The translations under genes were made by a program, and so were the position numbers. Source: Bacteriovorax sp. (lineage in GTDB: Bacteria; Bdellovibrionota; Bacteriovoracia; Bacteriovoracales; Bacteriovoracaceae). From it: DNA of 39,542 bases. A model generated the notes under the pieces. It made no database searches. It had not been told where the DNA came from and saw only the letters and a list, made by a program, of their open reading frames with translations. The stretch covers positions 1-39,542 of the forward strand of contig JACMPM010000060.1 of assembly GCA_014377485.1 (NCBI GenBank), given 5' to 3'. Of this stretch, positions 15,599-25,391 are shown one piece after another. Every line of letters begins with the position of its first letter. Within the stretch, counting starts at the first letter, position 1.

Positions 15599-15649
15599 TG
15601 GGCACTCTCCGTCTTTTTTTCTTTGTGATTGTACAATAAGATATTATCT

Positions 15650-16198
15650 ATGCGAACTAACAAATTCATACCATTTTATATAGCACTCTCACTTCATTCG
15701 ATTCCTTTGATCTATTTTTTACTCAAAAAACCTACGCCACCTGCACCTATCATAGTGAGTTCAAGTGCTAAAACATCTCCCTCTCAAGGAATAGATCTAA
15801 CTGGTTTTTCAATTTCACATAAACCCGGAAACATTACAACTTCTACTAAGACAAACTCTATTAAAACAGTTGGTCTTCCTGCCAGTAGCCCTAAAGAACA
15901 TAACTCAGGATCTTTAGGAACAGGAAACGGAACTATTGGTGGTAGCTCAGCGCCAGTTTTTATCATTTTTCGCGAACCTGTCTATCCGCCAATAGCAAGG
16001 CAAAAAGGCTACGAAGGAAAGGTAAAAATTAAAGCTTATTATAATTTGGAAGGGGTAATTACTAAAGTCGATATTATTGAATCAAGTGGAATAAAAATGC
16101 TGGATGAAACCGTCAAAAAAACGGCATCAGGCTGGAAACTCTCCAGCACTAGAGTTGGTAGTTTTGAAAAAACTTTTGAATTTAAATTGAATGATTAA
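15650..16198 (+). CDS. TonB-family energy transducer, orphan
   Basis: 182 aa. One N-terminal membrane helix (FIPFYIALSLHSIPLIYFLL) is followed by a Pro/Ser/Thr/Gly-rich periplasmic linker and a C-terminal TonB domain (about 108-182), with the YPPIARQKGYEGKV signature. Family members transmit proton-motive force to outer-membrane receptors. No ExbB, ExbD or TonB-dependent receptor is nearby, so its motor complex must lie elsewhere. The linker is short and poor in the usual Pro-Lys/Pro-Glu repeats. ATG 15650 is preferred to TTG 15629 because the membrane helix starts there. Confidence 0.8.
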   Translation: MRTNKFIPFYIALSLHSIPLIYFLLKKPTPPAPIIVSSSAKTSPSQGIDLTGFSISHKPGNITTSTKTNSIKTVGLPASSPKEHNSGSLGTGNGTIGGSSAPVFIIFREPVYPPIARQKGYEGKVKIKAYYNLEGVITKVDIIESSGIKMLDETVKKTASGWKLSSTRVGSFEKTFEFKLND

Positions 16199-16209
16199 TT
16201 TACTATTTC

Positions 16210-17109
16210 TTAGTTAGTGCAAATATTATCAAGATCAATACTCACCTTTCCCATGTTATATTTGATCATTCTCCAATTTGGATCGTCAGTTCCATTTTCT
16301 TTATAATGGCATAGATTTTTAGAAACTCTTGCCATCTCTTCATTTGAAAGATTCATTTTTTTTAGACTTTCGACTACACTAATTACGGTATTTGGATCAT
16401 CACCTGCAAAAGTTTTTTCAAGTGAATTTACAAATATTATACGGTCGCTCGACGAATCCTTGGTCGAGAGTTTCGCTAATGCTTGGGCTTTTGCATTTCC
16501 TTTAAAATTATCAACAATTTTTAGTAAATGATCGGTGTCATTATCTGAAGTATCATATTCTTTGATAAGTTCTAACGCTAAAACTTGAATTATTTCATTT
16601 GAACTATAGGTGAGTTCGTTCATCAAATCCCAATCAATTTGACTTTTTAAATCAGGATTTATTCGAAGACCCTCAAGCATGATATTTAAACTTCTTCCCA
16701 ATAAAATATGTCCAGGTGTTTTGTTCTCATCAAAATAAGCGTCACTTTCACTTCGTCTCTCCATCCCACAAAAATCTTTTTTTAGACAATTGGCAAGATT
16801 GGCAATACTGCCGTTTGTAAGATTGAAGAGATGTTTAGAGTTTTTTGGATTGACTAAATCCTTAACGCTTATTGAATAATTATTAACGCTCACCCAGTTT
16901 CTGTCCTGAACTGTTTCAATTTTTAAATTTCTTTCTAGTTTTGCCAGATCATTCTTTAAAATATTTTCTGCATTGGAACTAGATAACGATGAATTTTTCG
17001 TATTAATATTTTCGGCATTTTTTTGTGTAGCACTGGTGGGCGATTTCAAAAAAAACCCGGCACTACACAAAAACACAATGATAAATAAGACCGCTTTTTT
17101 AATCTTCAT
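16210..17109 (-). CDS. Exported helical-repeat-like protein, unknown function
   Basis: 299 aa. An N-terminal hydrophobic segment (VLFIIVFLCSAGFF) acts as signal peptide or anchor. A Ser/Asn-rich linker leads to a helical region (about 130-270) with amphipathic units reminiscent of HEAT-type repeats (IIQVLALELIKEY, AQALAKLST, VISVVESLKKM). I do not recognise a family. Its ATG overlaps the stop of the lysozyme-like gene (TAATG), so the two are translationally coupled and probably work as a pair. A regulator, inhibitor or self-protection partner for the upstream wall enzyme is one possibility, but this is inference from gene order alone. Confidence 0.7.
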   Translation of the reverse strand: MKIKKAVLFIIVFLCSAGFFLKSPTSATQKNAENINTKNSSLSSSNAENILKNDLAKLERNLKIETVQDRNWVSVNNYSISVKDLVNPKNSKHLFNLTNGSIANLANCLKKDFCGMERRSESDAYFDENKTPGHILLGRSLNIMLEGLRINPDLKSQIDWDLMNELTYSSNEIIQVLALELIKEYDTSDNDTDHLLKIVDNFKGNAKAQALAKLSTKDSSSDRIIFVNSLEKTFAGDDPNTVISVVESLKKMNLSNEEMARVSKNLCHYKENGTDDPNWRMIKYNMGKVSIDLDNICTN

Positions 17110-18113
17110 TATAATGCTAATATTTTACTCAATGCTTTTCTATCATTTTTGCTGCCTTTCAAATTAGCAACAATTTCTTTTATCGCCAAAGCAGAGTCTC
17201 CATCAATTTTAATTTCACCTATATAGTCGGGAGAAATAGTTCCTGTAAAATTTAGTATTTTATCTAAGTTTTTAGCAAAACCAATATCGTGATTTTTGTA
17301 AGGAGAACTAGGATCAGCAAAGCGACAAGTTTGAGAGATAGATCCCGAGTTATACTTTCCAGACCAGATTCCCTTAATCAAATTGATATAGTTGATCTTT
17401 TTCTGATCTTTAAAACTCCAGGCAGGGGATAAACATTTATAATCGGCGGCATTTCGATAAACAGGATCAAATCCATTTAACAAATGATTAAATCCATAAT
17501 TAAGAGTTAATGCAACACTTTCATATTTTCTGTTCGCCAGAAAATCTTCAAAATGCCAACGAATACTTATTTGCATTATACTTAAGTCAGTTCCGTCTCC
17601 GCCTCGAATCATTTGATTCACTCCTACCTTAAGGTTCATGGCTTCACAATTAGGGAAATAAGTTCGTGCAGGATTTTTAAAATACTGATTAAAAATTTTA
17701 TAATTTGTAGGACCTGATTTCTTGACCAACTCTGCATTATTAGCAGCGACGTTGCAAACATCTCCATCTACATTTCGAAAGTGTACATAAAGTCCTTCAT
17801 GTAATGGAACGGTTAATCCCAAAACGAGGAATGAATAATAGGCTTGCGAATCACCCGCATCCAAATATTTTCTAGCTTTTGCATCGGCTTCTTTGATAAT
17901 TAGAGCAACTAATGAACTTGCATATTTTGATTTTTCAATTTTATCGCTCTGGTCTCTAAAAACAGGACCAATTAATTTTATCGTTGGATTAATTGTGTAT
18001 GTCATTCGATCAAGTGCCTTATTCCTCGCCTGATCATCAGCATGCGAACAGCTCATTAATAAAACAAATGTTGAAATACTGGTGATACAAGATTTGACGA
18101 TCTTTTTTGTCAT
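17109..18113 (-). CDS. Lysozyme-like lipoprotein, candidate peptidoglycan glycosidase
   Basis: 334 aa from ATG 18113, which has GGGGGAG upstream and begins a lipoprotein signal ending in LLMSC (Cys22). The reading frame extends further upstream to 18185 but without a signal peptide. The body resembles the lysozyme/lytic transglycosylase fold: LHEGLYVHF with E106 as possible general acid, LSIMQISIRWH (179-187) like the G-L-M-Q-I block after the catalytic Glu, and a long Cys-containing C-terminal part. The similarity is weak and judged by eye. Neighbours are all wall enzymes. It is coupled to the helical-repeat gene by TAATG; a 139-base gap separates it from the 3D-domain gene, which may hold its own promoter. 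Confidence 0.6.
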   Translation of the reverse strand: MTKKIVKSCITSISTFVLLMSCSHADDQARNKALDRMTYTINPTIKLIGPVFRDQSDKIEKSKYASSLVALIIKEADAKARKYLDAGDSQAYYSFLVLGLTVPLHEGLYVHFRNVDGDVCNVAANNAELVKKSGPTNYKIFNQYFKNPARTYFPNCEAMNLKVGVNQMIRGGDGTDLSIMQISIRWHFEDFLANRKYESVALTLNYGFNHLLNGFDPVYRNAADYKCLSPAWSFKDQKKINYINLIKGIWSGKYNSGSISQTCRFADPSSPYKNHDIGFAKNLDKILNFTGTISPDYIGEIKIDGDSALAIKEIVANLKGSKNDRKALSKILAL

Positions 18114-18252
18114 AGCTCCCCCTTTTATTACACTCCTGTTTTTCTCAGGACGATTAGGGATACAACACAGATTTAATGGTAGCAATACTAGCTATGAAAT
18201 ATTCGCGAAAGCATAATTTTAAATTATTTCTCTCATAGATTATTAGTGAAAT

Positions 18253-19038
18253 TTAATGAGATCTAAGATGCATTTTTGATAAATCGTTAATGATGTCTGG
18301 ATTTTTAACTATGTAGGCTATAAAAGGTAATGTGCTCACATGACTGATCCATGGAAAAAATGATGAATAAAGTTGGGTGCCGATAAAAACATCAATATGA
18401 TTTAATTTGATAGCTCCACCACTATCACCCGCAAAAAAATAACCATCGTGAATAACGGTCTCACCATTTTTTAATTTTAACTTAGTACCTCGTGCATCTG
18501 GAATATAAAGTACAGTACCTGTTGGAATGATTAATGGGTCGGTGGCGATAGTGCGGAAAGGTGTTAATTTAAATTTACCGACACCATCTCCAAAAGCTCC
18601 TTTTGCTAATCTAAATTTAGTATTACCAAGACTTAAAGCAAAAAAACTACTGCAATCATTTGGAAATAATTCAGAGGTGGTATCAAAATTATATGTTTTC
18701 TCTTCGCCAGTTTTAAAATGTATTCTAACAGAACCTTCTAGAGCACTTTTGCACCAATCTTCCAAGGTGAGTTTGGGGCCCAATTCTAATCCGTTCACAT
18801 CTCTTAAGTCTACTTCACCGCCCCCATCTACAATCTCGGGCAGATTATAACTTGTCGCCCATAGAACAAGTGGCTCGCCAAGATCTGCAATGGGAGCTTC
18901 AGAATAATTAAACTTATCAAAATTGAAATAATCCTGGGCCTTTGATCTTCCATTAAAGAGCAAGACTAGAAAAAGAACGAAAGAATAAGCAACTAAATGC
19001 TTATTCTTTCTTAAATATTTTATAAATTGATTTATCAT
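18253..19038 (-). CDS. 3D-domain muralytic protein (MltA/Sps-YuiC-like)
   Basis: 261 aa. A membrane segment (about 15-29) ends near SKAQ, so it is exported or anchored. The 3D domain is clear: LWATSYNLPEI at 59-69 as first strand, FRTIATDPLIIPTGTVLYIP (161-180), and AGDSGGAIKLNHIDVFIG (203-220). The three name-giving aspartates are likely D167, D205 and D216. In MltA and Sps proteins this fold cleaves glycan strands to 1,6-anhydro-muropeptides. The MltA-specific extra domain is replaced by a shorter insertion with two Cys (W95-C96, C129). It lies 7 bases after the PBP4 gene, in the same operon. Confidence 0.8.
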   Translation of the reverse strand: MINQFIKYLRKNKHLVAYSFVLFLVLLFNGRSKAQDYFNFDKFNYSEAPIADLGEPLVLWATSYNLPEIVDGGGEVDLRDVNGLELGPKLTLEDWCKSALEGSVRIHFKTGEEKTYNFDTTSELFPNDCSSFFALSLGNTKFRLAKGAFGDGVGKFKLTPFRTIATDPLIIPTGTVLYIPDARGTKLKLKNGETVIHDGYFFAGDSGGAIKLNHIDVFIGTQLYSSFFPWISHVSTLPFIAYIVKNPDIINDLSKMHLRSH

Positions 19039-19045
19039 CCGTTAG

Positions 19046-20356
19046 TTAAAAAAGATTTTCTTCAACTGAAGAGAAATCTGATACATCTTCGAAATTTTTT
19101 AAACTGTCGCCATCATATGGGTGAAAACCTTCCACTTCGTATTCAAAAACTTTCGGACCACCCATTTCAGTCATAATCGATTTAACCATGGCATTTTGGA
19201 CAACCTTAGATCCTGTAATATCTGTTGATTGATTGAAAATTCCAAAAAAGCTAAAACCATTTTGAGTGTTCATTGCTCCAGCAAGTGTTGATGTATGCAT
19301 CAACGTCCCGGTTTTTGCTACGAAAGAATTTTTAAAATCAGAAGGAAATACTCGATTTCTAAAAGTCCCACCGTCACTTCCAGGAACGGCTACAACGTCT
19401 TCAATCGTTTTGCCTTGCTTCTCTATAGATTTTTTAAGCTCTGAAATTAAATTAAGCATAACTCCACAAGTAGCGTAGTTATCTTTACGGACGCCATCAA
19501 TGATTGTTGGCAATCCACTACCGGAGTAAAAACGAATTTGATCTGAAGTTAACTTGAAACGATCACTAATGTATTGAGAGAAATTAGACGTTCCACCAAC
19601 CTGACGAAAAACTGTTTCGGCAATATAGTTATTAGATTTAATATTCATTTGTTTTAAATATTTATAAAGCCCAGGAGAAGATAGAGTTAAAACTTTGACT
19701 TTATCATCACCTGCGAAAGGATTAGAATCGACCATATTTACGCTTTCAACTTCAAAGCTTACATCTTTTCTAAATTTTCCAGTCTTAGCCATATTATAGA
19801 AATTAGCATATTCATCTTTTGAATTAGTAGACCAAGAGGATGTATTAAAATAATTTTTTAGAACTCTTCCCATCGTTACAGCGTTAATCGTTGGGTATAC
19901 GTCAGTCTCGTAAGCAACATCTGGATAAACAATAACGTTTTTATCAAACGTAATTGTATCAAATTTATTATAACCCAATTCATTTAGCTGAGAGATAAGA
20001 AAAAACATTTTTTCATCACCAAGGTATGGATCATAGCTGCCTTGGATGTGAAGATTATTTCCTTTAATAAATAGTTTTGTATCATACTTATAATCCGCAC
20101 CTAATTTATCAATTGACCAAAGAGAAGTTAAAAGTTTTGATACAGATGCCAGACGAATTTTCATATCAAGATTTGATCCTTGTGCTACTCCTTGCTCATC
20201 TGTGTAACAGTAAGACTGATCTTTTGCTGTTATTGCCTGTGCTCTCAATTGTTGGCTCCAAACTTTATCAGTTTGGTCATTGGCAATTGCTTGCATGCAC
20301 ATCAATGTAGGAATACTAAAAGCTAAGCAAATATTTAAAGTATTTGAAAATTTCAT
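19046..20356 (-). CDS. PBP4-type D-alanyl-D-alanine carboxypeptidase/endopeptidase (peptidase S13)
   Basis: 436 aa with a signal peptide (to about residue 26), periplasmic. It would trim terminal D-Ala and cut 4-3 cross-links. All three active-site motifs are present: SVSK (S71-K74), SNN (S241-N243) and KTG (348-350); the family-typical GSGLP block is at 279-283. S71 to S241 spans 170 residues against 244 in E. coli PBP4 (S62-S306, from memory). The inserted domains are therefore about 75 residues shorter, as described for predatory Bdellovibrio DacB proteins lacking domain III. The gene follows the L,D-transpeptidase gene by 19 bases and precedes the 3D-domain gene by 7. Confidence 0.93.
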   Translation of the reverse strand: MKFSNTLNICLAFSIPTLMCMQAIANDQTDKVWSQQLRAQAITAKDQSYCYTDEQGVAQGSNLDMKIRLASVSKLLTSLWSIDKLGADYKYDTKLFIKGNNLHIQGSYDPYLGDEKMFFLISQLNELGYNKFDTITFDKNVIVYPDVAYETDVYPTINAVTMGRVLKNYFNTSSWSTNSKDEYANFYNMAKTGKFRKDVSFEVESVNMVDSNPFAGDDKVKVLTLSSPGLYKYLKQMNIKSNNYIAETVFRQVGGTSNFSQYISDRFKLTSDQIRFYSGSGLPTIIDGVRKDNYATCGVMLNLISELKKSIEKQGKTIEDVVAVPGSDGGTFRNRVFPSDFKNSFVAKTGTLMHTSTLAGAMNTQNGFSFFGIFNQSTDITGSKVVQNAMVKSIMTEMGGPKVFEYEVEGFHPYDGDSLKNFEDVSDFSSVEENLF

Positions 20357-20375
20357 TACATCTCCATTTATAAAA

Positions 20376-21776
20376 TTATTTTAGATTCGAACGTTGCATC
20401 CATGGAGGCGTCATTTCATCAGAAAATCCACTCACTTCTAAAACTGCCCCAGGATGGGCGTAACCTTCCAACATTCCAGCATCAACATAAAAAGTTCCGT
20501 GCATGTCTTTATCTAGGATTCCGTAAACATTTCCTTTACGGCCTACTTTTCTACTGAATTTTCCTAATTTTTCACCAGGCGTATAGGCAATTACATCTGG
20601 ATGTACGTCGCGTACATAAGTTCCTGCTTCTATCACTTGGTTAAGAGGACTTTTTGGATCGAGAATAAGTTCGCCACCTCCGCGTTTTGCTTCCCAAAAT
20701 GCATCTAAATCTTGAGACGATACTCCAAGAGATTTTAAAACTTCTTCACGGTCAACAGCGTGGTTTCTACTTTTTGTCATTATGTACTTCCACTCTTGAG
20801 TTTCATTAGGATAATTCTTTAGAGTTGGATCCAGGATTTCTTCTTTTGCATAAATTTTAATAATTGGAGCTCCAACATCAATCATGTTACGTAAAAAAGC
20901 GATTGCTTCGTTATTGTTTCTTGTACAACCAGAACTTCTTGGATCTGAAACAATATTAATAAGAGGTTTTTTTACTCTCTGAATAAATTTGTCTTTATCG
21001 CTACCCCATCCAAGAGTTCCGTGAGTCCATTGACCGTATGGTTCAGGTGCTACGAAAGCTGTAAACCAACCGAAAGCTCCTCGCATCTTACCTTCTGCTT
21101 TTCCTGCAGCATCAAGAGGCATAGACTTTTTAGACAACCATTCACTCCACTTAGCGTCTGGTGCTGGAGTATCTGGGTATCCCTCATGATACCAAGAGGG
21201 ATAATGTCCTTCTGGATCTTGATAAAATTTACTCCAGCCAGTTATACGGTAACTTCCCAAGATACTTCTTCCTTTTCCTTTTTCATCTTTTGGGTGATCT
21301 ATGTCTTCACCAACGACAACTTCTGATTCCATTACCATTTTATTTGGACAAGAATTATCAGCACAAGTTCTTTCATATAAACGAATAGTTTCTGTTGCTA
21401 CGTTAACGACTACAAAATATTTCCCGATAAAATCTTTATAGTCGACAATTTTCGGAGCTAAATATTCGGTGCTTATAAAATATTTTTCAGATTTAACAAT
21501 TGGGTCATAAGTAAGAACGATACTGACTTCAACAAAATTGTTATTGTAAACTACTGCTGGATTGATGATTTTAACTTTGTCGTTAAGACTTAGTTCACCT
21601 AAGATTTTCCCTGTTGCATCCGGGGCAGATCTAACTCTTACACTGTTGCTTGAAATAAAATATACAGATTGGTCATTATAAACCGTAGCAGTTGGTGTAG
21701 GAACTTGGTCTGCAAATGACTTTGGAAAGTTCATTATGCTAGAAAATAAAATTAAAGGTAAGATGGTGCTTTTCAT
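20376..21776 (-). CDS. SH3b-YkuD L,D-transpeptidase with extra C-terminal domain
   Basis: 466 aa with a signal peptide ending near SFA (22). Residues about 36-108 form a bacterial SH3 domain (VRVRSAPDATGKILGEL). Residues 118-310 are a YkuD domain with H252 in WTHGTLGWG and catalytic C284 in SSGCTRN (R286). It would form 3-3 cross-links or attach/exchange D-amino acids or lipoprotein at tetrapeptides. The YkuD core carries long insertions, and residues 311-466 are an additional C-terminal region ending in VRDVHPDVIAYTPGEKLG-type beta segments that I do not recognise. AGGAG precedes the ATG by 6 bases. It is first gene of the operon continuing with PBP4 and the 3D protein. Confidence 0.92.
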   Translation of the reverse strand: MKSTILPLILFSSIMNFPKSFADQVPTPTATVYNDQSVYFISSNSVRVRSAPDATGKILGELSLNDKVKIINPAVVYNNNFVEVSIVLTYDPIVKSEKYFISTEYLAPKIVDYKDFIGKYFVVVNVATETIRLYERTCADNSCPNKMVMESEVVVGEDIDHPKDEKGKGRSILGSYRITGWSKFYQDPEGHYPSWYHEGYPDTPAPDAKWSEWLSKKSMPLDAAGKAEGKMRGAFGWFTAFVAPEPYGQWTHGTLGWGSDKDKFIQRVKKPLINIVSDPRSSGCTRNNNEAIAFLRNMIDVGAPIIKIYAKEEILDPTLKNYPNETQEWKYIMTKSRNHAVDREEVLKSLGVSSQDLDAFWEAKRGGGELILDPKSPLNQVIEAGTYVRDVHPDVIAYTPGEKLGKFSRKVGRKGNVYGILDKDMHGTFYVDAGMLEGYAHPGAVLEVSGFSDEMTPPWMQRSNLK

Positions 21777-21814
21777 TCGTTTCTCCTAATAAAAAAGCTT
21801 AATTATTTTTGCCA

Positions 21815-21843
21815 TTCATAGCTCTAAACCTAATACCTTACAA
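21815..21843 (-). promoter_or_regulatory. Putative promoter of the L,D-transpeptidase operon
   Basis: In the 164-base gap before the transpeptidase gene, minus-strand TTGTAA (21843-21838) and TATGAA (21820-21815) are 17 bases apart, each matching 4/6 of consensus. The implied start is about 30 bases ahead of the ATG. The rest of the gap is featureless AT-rich sequence. The same TTGTAA-N17 layout recurs before the GAF-AAA regulator gene. Confidence 0.3.
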
Positions 21844-21940
21844 GATAGGATAAAGAAGTTGTAAAATTTACATTGAACCAAAAGACAATAAGCTAATGAT
21901 TTAAATAGTAATTAATTAGTAATGTGTAAATGTGAACCGA

Positions 21941-22405
21941 TTAAAGACCATTCGTAGAATTTGAAGTGGTGGCTTCCGATTTTAAGGTTTCTAGAAGCTT
22001 GCTAGCACAAAACCACCTAGCAGTTTTTTCAGCACAGGCAATCAAGGCTTTTTTAGGTATAGTTTGAGCTTTTTTAAATAAACTATCTTTCATTCTTTTA
22101 CTTTTTGCCAAGTCAGAATAGATCCCACAATGACAATTTAACTCACAATTGGCCTCTAGGTCTGTCGTAATAATATGCGGTCCTTTCTTTATCTCTTCAT
22201 CTAATATTGCGTGTAATGGTTGAATGAGATTTAATGCTTCATTAGGAGAAATTTGACAGACTTCTTTGAGATTTTTTTCTTGGTCAGCTACTAACATTAG
22301 AAAATTTGCAGCTTCATCATGTTGATCAATTTTAATCATGCCCTGCTTATCAAGTAGATAAGTCGAGCATGATGAAAACATGGAAATTAATAAGAGGAGA
22401 GGCAA
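21941..22405 (-). CDS. Small Cys-rich lipoprotein of unknown function
   Basis: 154 aa from TTG 22405. A hydrophobic stretch ends in FSSC (Cys13), a lipobox. The mature part has six cysteines (one early, ANCELNCHC, IAC, WFC), suggesting three disulfides, and is helical. No family recognised. From TTG the signal peptide lacks the usual basic start. In frame, four codons upstream, is ATA at 22417, giving M-K-Y-F-L before the hydrophobic core with AGGA close upstream; that non-standard start would make a textbook lipoprotein signal and overlap the deacetylase stop. It is cotranscribed with the deacetylase gene and may assist it. Confidence 0.65.
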   Translation of the reverse strand: MPLLLLISMFSSCSTYLLDKQGMIKIDQHDEAANFLMLVADQEKNLKEVCQISPNEALNLIQPLHAILDEEIKKGPHIITTDLEANCELNCHCGIYSDLAKSKRMKDSLFKKAQTIPKKALIACAEKTARWFCASKLLETLKSEATTSNSTNGL

Positions 22406-22413
22406 AAAATATT

Positions 22414-23862
22414 TTATTTTCCTGCTCCGTTCATTTCATTGATAATTTCTGGAATTGTCACCCAACGAATTTCATTTTCAGACCCTTTTAGAGTCTGTGA
22501 CCACTCAACTAATTTCCTAGAAGCAACAACTGATTGAGGGTGAATATCATGGAAGAGTATAACTCCATGACCTGCAGCTTTCATTTGTTTTTGTGCTCTT
22601 GCTACTATTGAGTCAGGATCTTTATCTTGCCAGTCAAGTGTATCTACATTCCAAAAAACATGAATCATATCCAGATCTGCAATCATTTTACGAATGCGTG
22701 GAACAGAATTACCTGCCCCATATGGACATCTAAAAAATTTCGGTTTTACTCCATAAGCTTTTGTGTCTATGTCTGTAGATTGAACAATTTCTTTTTGAAG
22801 TTGAACATCATCTAATTTTGGTAATTGAGGGTGCGTCCAAGAGTGATTTCCTCTCGGCAATCCATTTTCCCTAACTAAATCAACTATGCTTTGGTAACGA
22901 ATAACGTTTTCTGCCAACCAAAAAAATGTTGCTTTAATTCCTAAATCGTTAAGATTTTTTACGATTACCGGAGTGTGAACAGGGCTGGGTCCATCATCGT
23001 AAGTCAACGCCCAAACATTTTTAGGAAAAATTAATCCCATAACATTTCCGTTGGGACCAGTACTTGGATAAAATTTTAAATCGCTTTGTTGAGGCTCACG
23101 TCCTTTCTGATCGACCAACTGTAATTTGTCGGACTCACCTTCAATTTTTTGGTTAAGTTCATCATTTGTGAATTGTTCAGCTTTTCCCAACGTGCGAAAT
23201 TTCTCTCTGTATTGTCTTAGTAATTGAATTTTTTCTTGCTCATCTTTAAAAGAAACAGAAGGAAGTTCAGTTGGAGAAACTGATTTATTCGACATTCCTC
23301 TTCTTTCTCGAATGGATGCTGCAATATTATTTTTTAATTCATCATAAGAGATTTTTTCTAGAACGTCATTTGAGTCTAATTTCTTTTTAAACTTCAATAG
23401 GATATTCTTTGCCACTTTTCTTTTAGCAGAATTAATCGACTTATCATAGGACATATCTGTAAGAGATAAGTAGTGAAAGATAATTTTATCTTGCAAGCGA
23501 TGACTTAATCCCCACATAACAATCATTTTTTTATAGGCTTTAGAATTTTCAAATGAAACGCCGGTAGCACTTGCGACTGATTCATCGAGTTCTTTATCAA
23601 AATCATTTAAACCTGATTCCGCTCTTATAAAGATACTTTTTAAAACATCTAAATAAGCTAAAAATTCTTTTTCAGGCTCTGCTGAATTCATCATGCCATC
23701 GAAGCTAATTTTTAAATTCTCTTCACCCATAGATGAGCTCGGTTCACGAACTATTGATACCACCGGATGATTTTGAACGCTTTCATGCGGCATGTACCCC
23801 GCACACGACGATAGAAAAAAACAGAATACCAAAGGGTATGACATAGAACTTTTAAAAAGCAT
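22414..23862 (-). CDS. Polysaccharide (peptidoglycan/chitin) deacetylase lipoprotein, NodB domain
   Basis: 482 aa. The lipobox FLSSC (Cys20) predicts a lipoprotein. Residues 25-265 are a helical, charged region unlike known domains. The NodB domain (about 283-475) has all five catalytic motifs: TYDDGP (287-292, metal-binding D290), HSWTH (340-344), RCPYG (378-382), WNVDTLDW (404-411) and LFHDIH (436-441). It should remove N-acetyl groups from wall sugars in a metal-dependent reaction. In Bdellovibrio, deacetylases of this family mark prey peptidoglycan for later lysozyme attack. GGGAG precedes the ATG. The Cys-rich lipoprotein follows directly; the gene is divergent from the SLT transglycosylase. 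Confidence 0.93.
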   Translation of the reverse strand: MLFKSSMSYPLVFCFFLSSCAGYMPHESVQNHPVVSIVREPSSSMGEENLKISFDGMMNSAEPEKEFLAYLDVLKSIFIRAESGLNDFDKELDESVASATGVSFENSKAYKKMIVMWGLSHRLQDKIIFHYLSLTDMSYDKSINSAKRKVAKNILLKFKKKLDSNDVLEKISYDELKNNIAASIRERRGMSNKSVSPTELPSVSFKDEQEKIQLLRQYREKFRTLGKAEQFTNDELNQKIEGESDKLQLVDQKGREPQQSDLKFYPSTGPNGNVMGLIFPKNVWALTYDDGPSPVHTPVIVKNLNDLGIKATFFWLAENVIRYQSIVDLVRENGLPRGNHSWTHPQLPKLDDVQLQKEIVQSTDIDTKAYGVKPKFFRCPYGAGNSVPRIRKMIADLDMIHVFWNVDTLDWQDKDPDSIVARAQKQMKAAGHGVILFHDIHPQSVVASRKLVEWSQTLKGSENEIRWVTIPEIINEMNGAGK

Positions 23863-23966
23863 AAATTCTCCCGTATTTAAAGAGTCTAAAACATTTCTCT
23901 ATCGACTAATTCGAAAACATTGTTGAGGTAAAATTCTATTTAAGTCATGAATGGAAAAATAGCATT

Positions 23967-23996
23967 TTGGTCGGTTTCTTTTACATAAACTATAAT
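23967..23996 (+). promoter_or_regulatory. Putative promoter of the SLT transglycosylase gene
   Basis: A perfect TATAAT (23991-23996) has TTGGTC (67-72 of 23900s, 3/6 match) 18 bases upstream. Transcription would start near 24003, leaving a leader of about 100 bases to the preferred ATG at 24102. The remaining intergenic DNA back to the deacetylase start (23863-23966) shows no other clear signal. Confidence 0.4.
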
Positions 23997-24101
23997 TTCA
24001 ATAACTAATGAATGATGTATTTTTTTCACACTTATATCTTAAGCATGGTTAATTTTGTAATTTTTGGACCACTAACAATCGTAGATAAAGAGATTAAAAT
24101 T

Positions 24102-25391
24102 ATGAAAAATTACTTCCTTATTACTCTTCTGTGTCTTCATGCCTTGCCAGCAATGTCTGCGACCTCTTGGGATAATCCAGCGGTACTTTGTCCGGAAGAA
24201 ATTCTACCTAGAGGATTAACCTGCCTGGACTTCAGTCATGTTGAAAACGCTTATACCGACTTTCCTGATGAAACAACTAAGGAAGAAATGCTTGATTGGA
24301 GAAATAATAAAGCAGCTGATTTAAAAGTTTGTAGAAACCTTGAAGTTATACGCCGAGAACAAGTTAAAGCTGGTAGCTTCTCAGCTGCTACGTTAGAGCA
24401 AGCCTGGATGGTTGTTGACGGTGGCAAACAAGTTAAAGAAAAACTTGAAGCAATAGAAGCTGCAAGTTTAAAAGTTGGAATCCCACCTCAGGTTTTAATC
24501 GGAGCCATGAAACAAGAATCTCTCTTGTCTTCTCTTGGAGTTTCGCCTGACGGTGGAAACTACTCGTGTGGCATGGCTCAATTAAATATTCAAGAGTGGT
24601 GTCAAAGTATGAATCGTCTTCCGGAAGCAGACAAAACTGCACTTGGATGGCCAGCAATCAGTTGTGATGAAAGTGTACTTCCAACTGATATCATCAAACC
24701 TTTCTATGATATCGCTATAAAAAATATTGGCACTCGTGCCGGCTACCAATTGGCGGCAGAAGACTTTAATGGAATCACAGCACAAGATGTGGTTGGAAGT
24801 TTTTCAAGCTCAAATATTCAAGATAAGCGTTATCAGGCAGTAACTTCTTTTGTTCATAACTGCCAGAATATTTCTTTATCAATTTCATTTAAAGCACAAA
24901 CTCTCAAAGGGCTTTATGATAACTTTGTTCCCAAATCATTAAAGGATGCTGAGCTTTATACTGAGGGAAAAACTTTTCCACGTGCTTGTAAAAATGCTTA
25001 TACATCTCGCGCCTATCCTTTGCACACTGGATGGTTACTTGCCGTGGCAATGTATAATGCTGGGCCGGGGCAAGCTAAATTACTTGGACACTATTACCAG
25101 GTTAAAGATAATAAATTTCCTGCAATTAACCCTTTGGGATTAATTGAAGCTCTTCATTGGGGTGGAAAATGGAAAAAAGGAACTGATAATGTTCTGTTTA
25201 AAGATCAGGATGGAAATAAATTAACTCAACGTTGGTTTAAAAGCTGTATCGTTCAAAGACATGTGGCAAGAGTTATTCAACATGTAACACTTCCAGCTGA
25301 ATCAATTGCAAAGTCCTTGGACCAAGAAGGATGCAAGATGACGGGAGTCCCTGAATACCGTCAAGTTTCTAGCGGTATAAAAGACAAATAA
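24102..25391 (+). CDS. Secreted SLT-family lytic transglycosylase (GH23-like)
   Basis: 429 aa from ATG 24102, which starts a clear signal peptide (MKNYFLITLLCLHALPAMSA). The open frame reaches back to 24012 but the extra residues would bury the signal. The catalytic Glu is E139 in AMKQESLLSS; GGNYSCGMAQLNI (151-163) is the substrate-groove block, and AVAMYNAGPGQAK (314-326) the third SLT motif. About 150 residues inserted between the second and third motifs, with several Cys, exceed the usual SLT domain. It would cleave MurNAc-GlcNAc bonds. It is transcribed away from the deacetylase gene from a shared 239-base intergenic region, suggesting joint control. Confidence 0.9.
   Translation: MKNYFLITLLCLHALPAMSATSWDNPAVLCPEEILPRGLTCLDFSHVENAYTDFPDETTKEEMLDWRNNKAADLKVCRNLEVIRREQVKAGSFSAATLEQAWMVVDGGKQVKEKLEAIEAASLKVGIPPQVLIGAMKQESLLSSLGVSPDGGNYSCGMAQLNIQEWCQSMNRLPEADKTALGWPAISCDESVLPTDIIKPFYDIAIKNIGTRAGYQLAAEDFNGITAQDVVGSFSSSNIQDKRYQAVTSFVHNCQNISLSISFKAQTLKGLYDNFVPKSLKDAELYTEGKTFPRACKNAYTSRAYPLHTGWLLAVAMYNAGPGQAKLLGHYYQVKDNKFPAINPLGLIEALHWGGKWKKGTDNVLFKDQDGNKLTQRWFKSCIVQRHVARVIQHVTLPAESIAKSLDQEGCKMTGVPEYRQVSSGIKDK

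Follow-up and report, generated by a model that had tools for sequence, protein, structure and literature searches.

The stretch analysed here (the window, 39,542 bp) is the complete contig C2 of a Bacteriovorax metagenome-assembled genome (MAG; 3.95 Mb in 147 contigs), whose source is a freshwater relative of predatory Bdellovibrio. An earlier note, made from the sequence, had described a cell-wall island of eight genes at 16210–25391, and all eight open reading frames (ORFs), labelled A to H in coordinate order, were found there. The focus of this work is the pair formed by B, a predicted lysozyme-fold protein, and A, its downstream neighbour, which stay together across Bdellovibrionota and might be an enzyme and its tethered partner. 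The features of the locus are as follows.

A, 16210..17109, minus strand: N-terminal signal anchor and periplasmic alpha-solenoid with four invariant Cys; proposed to be a tethered partner of B or to protect the cell from it.
B, 17109..18185, minus strand: secreted protein, predicted to be of the lysozyme superfamily; start probably near 18113, with Glu130 as putative catalytic residue.
C, 18253..19038, minus strand: exported 3D-domain protein with an MltA/Sps-type double-psi barrel, possibly glycan-cleaving (PF06725, 6e-12).
D, 19046..20356, minus strand: PBP4-type DD-endopeptidase/carboxypeptidase of the Bd0816/Bd3459 group (PF02113, Peptidase_S13, 3e-21).
E, 20376..21776, minus strand: SH3 and YkuD L,D-transpeptidase (PF03734, 1e-8; SH3_3, 6e-4).
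F, 21941..22405, minus strand: small cysteine-rich lipoprotein with a lipobox; candidate partner gene of G-type deacetylases.
G, 22414..23862, minus strand: lipoprotein with an N-terminal helical region and a C-terminal CE4 deacetylase domain, PgdA-like (PF01522, Polysacc_deac_1, 2e-26).
H, 24012..25391, plus strand: exported protein of SLT type (lytic transglycosylase/lysozyme-like), transcribed divergently; start probably near 24102.
TonB-like protein, 15629..16198, plus strand, convergent with A (PF03544, 2e-11).

Genes A to G all lie on the minus strand and are closely spaced, the widest gap being 164 bp between F and E, and H is divergent from them. Six of the eight (B, C, D, E, G and H) were classed as peptidoglycan enzymes, and A and F were left without a recognized family; A, B and F gave no Pfam or NCBIfam family match. 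The gene number and the enzyme identities proposed in the earlier note were thus borne out by the ORFs, Pfam, the catalytic motifs and the predicted fold of B. Signal peptides were found on B, C, D, E and H, lipoboxes on F and G, and an N-terminal signal anchor on A; these features and the start sites of B and H were judged by simple rules, not by a trained predictor. A promoter and terminator scan of the window gave signals no higher than those in shuffled sequence, and no signature of foreign origin was seen by GC content.

In the AlphaFold model of B (predicted local distance difference test, pLDDT, of 86), E130 closes the central helix (residues 113–131). An alignment of 17 homologues showed that E130, D200, M204, Q205, H211, Y278, N279 and four Cys were invariant, and the motifs E130, SIMQ202 and Y278NSG were recognized. 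When the model was compared by VIA-align, lysozyme-superfamily enzymes led the list, with a best Z of 8.3 and root mean square deviations of 3–5 Å over about 140 residues. The top 46 rows were nearly all lysozymes, transglycosylases, chitinases and endolysins, and the named matches were GH124, Slt, MltF, goose lysozyme and phiKZ gp144, with Z about 8. DslA, a lysozyme of Bdellovibrio, was missing from the fold-match lists of B, an absence that excludes nothing. The predicted fold and the motif order E ... [GS]xMQ ... YNxG are shared with goose-type lysozyme and Slt/MltF (GH23), from which B differs by the lack of a significant sequence match and by its own insertions and Cys. The profile of B against PDB sequences matched SH3 tails and noise alone, leaving the catalytic domain unmatched. 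In a profile comparison with goose lysozyme, the sole aligned stretch was [LI]MQ...R.H, at a probability of 2.5%. Because that comparison aligned one stretch alone, the kinship of B is argued from fold and motif order. The position of the putative catalytic Glu and the overall fold agreed with GH23-like enzymes, and no sequence match to a curated family was obtained. We conclude from the predicted fold and the motifs, and not from a sequence-family match, that B belongs to the lysozyme superfamily (GH23-like) but to none of its curated families. In distant relatives (L133, L134, L135 and L136), B has 500–630 amino acids and a C-terminal extension with SH3-like repeats.

The model of A was all-helical (pLDDT 86), and its VIA list was topped by HEAT/ARM-like solenoids with Z of 9–12, which for helical repeats is suggestive only. 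The N-terminus exhibits a hydrophobic stretch followed by basic residues, with no clear cleavage site, and four Cys are invariant among the homologues. The profile of A against PDB sequences gave no detectable sequence kin. The A homologues were without an Ank match by Pfam, although the same scan found Ank in the neighbours of PBP4 genes.

The distribution of the pair was determined in 369 Bdellovibrionota genomes, mostly MAGs, of which 129 belong to the family of the window genome. By profile search (E below about 1e-17), 55 copies of B were found in 52 genomes, 42 in the own family and 10 elsewhere; for the contig scan for A the narrower alignment A3 was used, as the wide alignment A1 was too divergent. 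It was found that A lies next downstream on the same strand for 51 of the 55 B copies, and that 49 of the 52 B-bearing genomes hold A (Fisher p about 8e-55 over the 369 genomes, shared descent ignored). A without B was nearly never seen, the exceptions being G144, G093 and a second A in G001, and the duplicate B copies in G070 and G058 each come with their own A. The pair is present in Halobacteriovorax and Bacteriovorax records. In other genera its neighbours are a CE4 deacetylase, an L,D-transpeptidase, a 3D protein or a PBP4, in varying order. That the flanks change across genera while B–A stays, and that duplicated B copies come with an A each, is a stronger argument than the p-value.

Within the genus, the island block was found again, flanks included, in G004, G005, G007 and G011 and in part in G001, G003, G006 and G013 (partial or short contigs); together with G000 these make up an island clade of nine genomes. 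In four of the five non-island genomes of the same genus, a compact locus was observed at the same place (L126–L129), with the order abh, small CE4 deacetylase, A and B, divergent from E, then exo and a histidine kinase gene. The fifth, G009, gave no B, A or E match. The island clade holds the enlarged set A to H between the same flanks, and the TonB-like gene, seen in island-type loci only, fills the slot of the small deacetylase. At a threshold of E 1e-40, none of the nine island genomes contains the small, ancestral deacetylase type, and G sits at the island in these genomes except G001, whose G–F relative lies elsewhere. Since the ancestral type is absent and G lies at the same locus, the deacetylase next to this B was replaced by a different one. 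The B–A core is older than the island. The gene block that the earlier note called an island is real, but it is not simply peculiar to this genome, being a larger version of a set that keeps clustering in Bacteriovoracaceae.

Some reshuffling of the flanks was observed, and G006 looks chimeric or recombined, which could be taken to mean that chance or an assembly error brought the wall genes together and that they have no common function. We regard this as highly improbable, because the synteny is found in several independent MAGs and because the sub-pairs B–A, G–F and B–E–deacetylase are kept across genera amid differing flanks. An assembly artefact was likewise ruled out for the island by the synteny in these MAGs. 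In G006 (L041, contig C113, 1–10400), D to H lie directly beside abh/M48 that group with non-island G012 (99/98, 100/99), and B, A and the small deacetylase are absent. Either the island moved laterally inside the genus, or the contig is chimeric through misassembly. In G010 (L129 9908–10558), the small deacetylase beside B–A is shortened to 216 amino acids with the last motif gone, possibly a decaying copy or a frameshift.

D carries S71VSK, S241NN and K348TG, the complete SxxK/SxN/KTG set. Its best PDB matches were Bd0816 (4e-47) and Bd3459 (about 2e-46), with E. coli PBP4 at 8e-6, so that by sequence D is assigned to the Peptidase S13 PBP4 proteins of the Bd0816/Bd3459 group; the likeness to the prey-wall DacBs of Bdellovibrio, noted earlier, was thereby sustained. 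The island copies of D group in a single clade (100/99), separate from the resident PBP4 copy at a second locus, and D arose through duplication inside the genus. It was reported that Bd0816 and Bd3459 act on the prey wall and that, inside the predator, both are blocked by an exported ankyrin protein, Bd3460, the gene of which sits directly after that of Bd3459 (PMC4686830). In Halobacteriovorax-type genomes, the gene of an anchored ankyrin protein follows PBP4. In genus g47, A–B was found head-to-head with PBP4–ankyrin (L204 3610–7894; L205 13851–18411), and at these two loci PBP4, a 3D protein and a CE4 deacetylase lie within about 12 kb of B–A. Unlike those of relatives, and unlike Bd3459, neither of the PBP4 genes of the present Bacteriovorax genome (window 19046–20356; L003 10257–11687) has an ankyrin neighbour.

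The layout of B–A is like that of Bd3459–Bd3460, with an exported wall enzyme and an envelope-bound alpha-repeat protein directly downstream. The two pairs differ in that B is a predicted lysozyme-fold glycan enzyme and in that A is not an ankyrin protein by Pfam and has no PDB sequence kin; A may act as Bd3460 does, yet it is no member of the ankyrin family. By analogy, the simplest reading is that A would act on B as the ankyrin protein acts on PBP4. A restraint of B by A is proposed because the order of enzyme and repeat protein matches Bd3459–Bd3460 and because both types of pair adjoin in g47. The cleavable signal peptide of B, as against the signal anchor of A, was also counted in favour of a tethered partner.

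Lipase/foldase pairs have the same layout, in which a secreted enzyme gene is followed by that of an inner-membrane-anchored helical periplasmic protein. In the main rival explanation, A would be such a membrane-anchored steric chaperone, Lif-like, for the folding of B before its release, with the kit still directed at the prey wall. B, with four invariant Cys, needs periplasmic folding, and the near-absolute coupling of B and A also fits a foldase. We nevertheless consider this explanation rather unlikely, as A resembles a repeat solenoid more than an extended helical clamp, the PBP4–ankyrin pair that adjoins B–A in g47 is of the inhibitor type, and the nearest documented parallels in the phylum, an enzyme with an exported repeat protein, are inhibitors (PMC4686830).

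In addition to its lipobox, G carries all five CE4 motifs (TYDDGP287, HSWTH340, R378CPYG, D407TLDW and L436FHD), with the Asp/His/His metal triad. It matched PgdA NF045820 at 2e-36, under the cut-off, and the peptidoglycan N-acetylglucosamine (GlcNAc) deacetylase of PDB 2c1g at 1e-33. Both G and the ancestral small deacetylase share the CE4 motifs of PgdA/NodB and match peptidoglycan GlcNAc deacetylases; G differs from PgdA/NodB in that it is a lipoprotein, its N-terminal part is long and helical, and F recurs as its neighbour. Outside the island, relatives of F were found at 11 loci, and a G-type deacetylase adjoins in nine of them, in four families, suggesting from gene clustering that F is a candidate deacetylase partner across the phylum. 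The earlier note had supposed that the two unrecognized proteins were partners of the enzymes, and the counts for A and F speak for it. The same conservation counts refuted a chance neighbourhood for B–A and for G–F. The deacetylase–F pair is kept in several Bdellovibrionota families (window 21941–23862; L191–L194, L196–L199, L203), and at L199 and L203 a 3D-domain protein also lies beside it; one genome with the pair is presumably the epibiotic B. qaytius.

Outside the island clade, 12 genomes from 4 genera have a deacetylase no more than 6 kb from B, with the order B–A–deacetylase in Bacteriovorax and deacetylase–B–A in two other genera including Halobacteriovorax. With the exchange of one deacetylase for another in the island clade, this bears out the lysozyme–deacetylase link suggested earlier, and the linkage supports a mark-then-cut system. 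DslA (Bd0314) is a lysozyme specific for deacetylated peptidoglycan, and bd0314 is transcribed alone (PMC7511926). B is comparable with DslA, considered together with the deacetylases Bd0468/Bd3279, in its predicted lysozyme superfamily, in being secreted and probably disulfide-bearing, in coming from a predator with CE4 deacetylases, and in the mark-then-cut idea. Unlike the singly transcribed bd0314, the gene of B is coupled to A and, in many cases, to a deacetylase gene. These two linkages give opposing predictions on the specificity of B.

With confidence about evenly balanced, we propose to read the island as an expanded gene set for processing the prey wall. In this reading, B would cut glycan, and A, tethered to the predator, would keep B in check there. 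B would be a secreted lysozyme-fold cutter of peptidoglycan glycan. A would stay in the predator envelope via its N-terminal anchor and bind B through the alpha-solenoid; B would be inactive while crossing the predator wall and free once released into the prey. G, with F, would remove acetyl groups from GlcNAc of the prey wall, the presumed substrate, and this deacetylation might aid B. D would cut cross-links, E would make or swap L,D bonds, and C and H would cut glycan.

Several observations weigh against this proposal. A Foldseek search with B gave no significant match, and a VIA Z of about 8 is moderate. No invariant acid was found about 11 residues past E130, the site expected for an equivalent of the second catalytic acid of DslA, E154, whose partner is Y228, as judged from sequence alignment. 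B is carried by about a third of the genomes of the family (42/129), mostly MAGs. A strict specificity of B for deacetylated wall, like that of DslA, would make a dedicated inhibitor superfluous, and gene pairs shaped like B–A can also be an enzyme and its chaperone.

The cluster might instead remodel the predator's own wall, in filament growth, in septation within the prey or in a resting form, for example the bdellocyst. In other bacteria, the classes to which E, C and G belong (L,D-transpeptidases, 3D/Sps-type proteins and PdaA/PgdA-type deacetylases) also have roles in growth, in stationary phase and in spores, and cysts are reported for some relatives. This possibility was considered unlikely, since D is nearest to two endopeptidases that act on prey, and a tethered partner such as A would be most needed if B must exit the cell. 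In addition, profile search gave no B match in the single-contig genomes G039 and G195, which we take to be the epibiotic B. exovorus and B. qaytius, respectively (G015 is taken to be H. marinus SJ).

The problem addressed by the prey-wall proposal is how an intraprey predator dissolves one wall yet spares its own. The characterized examples used for comparison, DslA as lysozyme and Bd3460 for self-protection, are both from Bdellovibrio, and B–A is a testable candidate for both jobs in the Bacteriovorax lineage. In a 2026 comparison, Bacteriovorax HI3 had five GlcNAc deacetylases and no DslA orthologue (PMC12827227), which leaves room for another lysozyme. A 2024 pangenome study listed lineage-specific wall enzymes by annotation terms (PMC11656739), a search that B and A may have escaped because neither matches a Pfam or NCBIfam family. 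No description of the B–A pair was found in the literature searched, which is not proof of absence, and no Halobacteriovorax predation transcriptome was found with the search terms used. Tentatively, and with somewhat less than even confidence, we suggest that predatory bacteria have in B–A their first lysozyme/self-protection pair. B would represent a lysozyme family without a name so far, and its membrane-tethered alpha-solenoid inhibitor would have evolved independently of Bd3460. In Bacteriovoracaceae the pair would fill the role of DslA, with self spared by an inhibitor that either replaces a chemical mark or works alongside one. The pair makes it possible to test whether the predator spares itself through a chemical mark on the wall of its prey, through a tethered inhibitor, or through both.

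Of the remaining enzymes, E carries the YkuD pattern HGT/SxGCxR as HGT252 and S281SGCTR, and the island E copies group together. In 18 genomes from five genera, a relative of E was found no more than 8 kb from B, mostly divergent outside the island clade; in another genus (L208/L152) the gene order is 3D, E, B, A and deacetylase. The SLT match of H (9e-4, 19.2 bits) falls short of the Pfam gathering score of 21.3, but the motifs QES168, GMAQ187 and YNAG348 are present despite this score. H is confined to the island clade.

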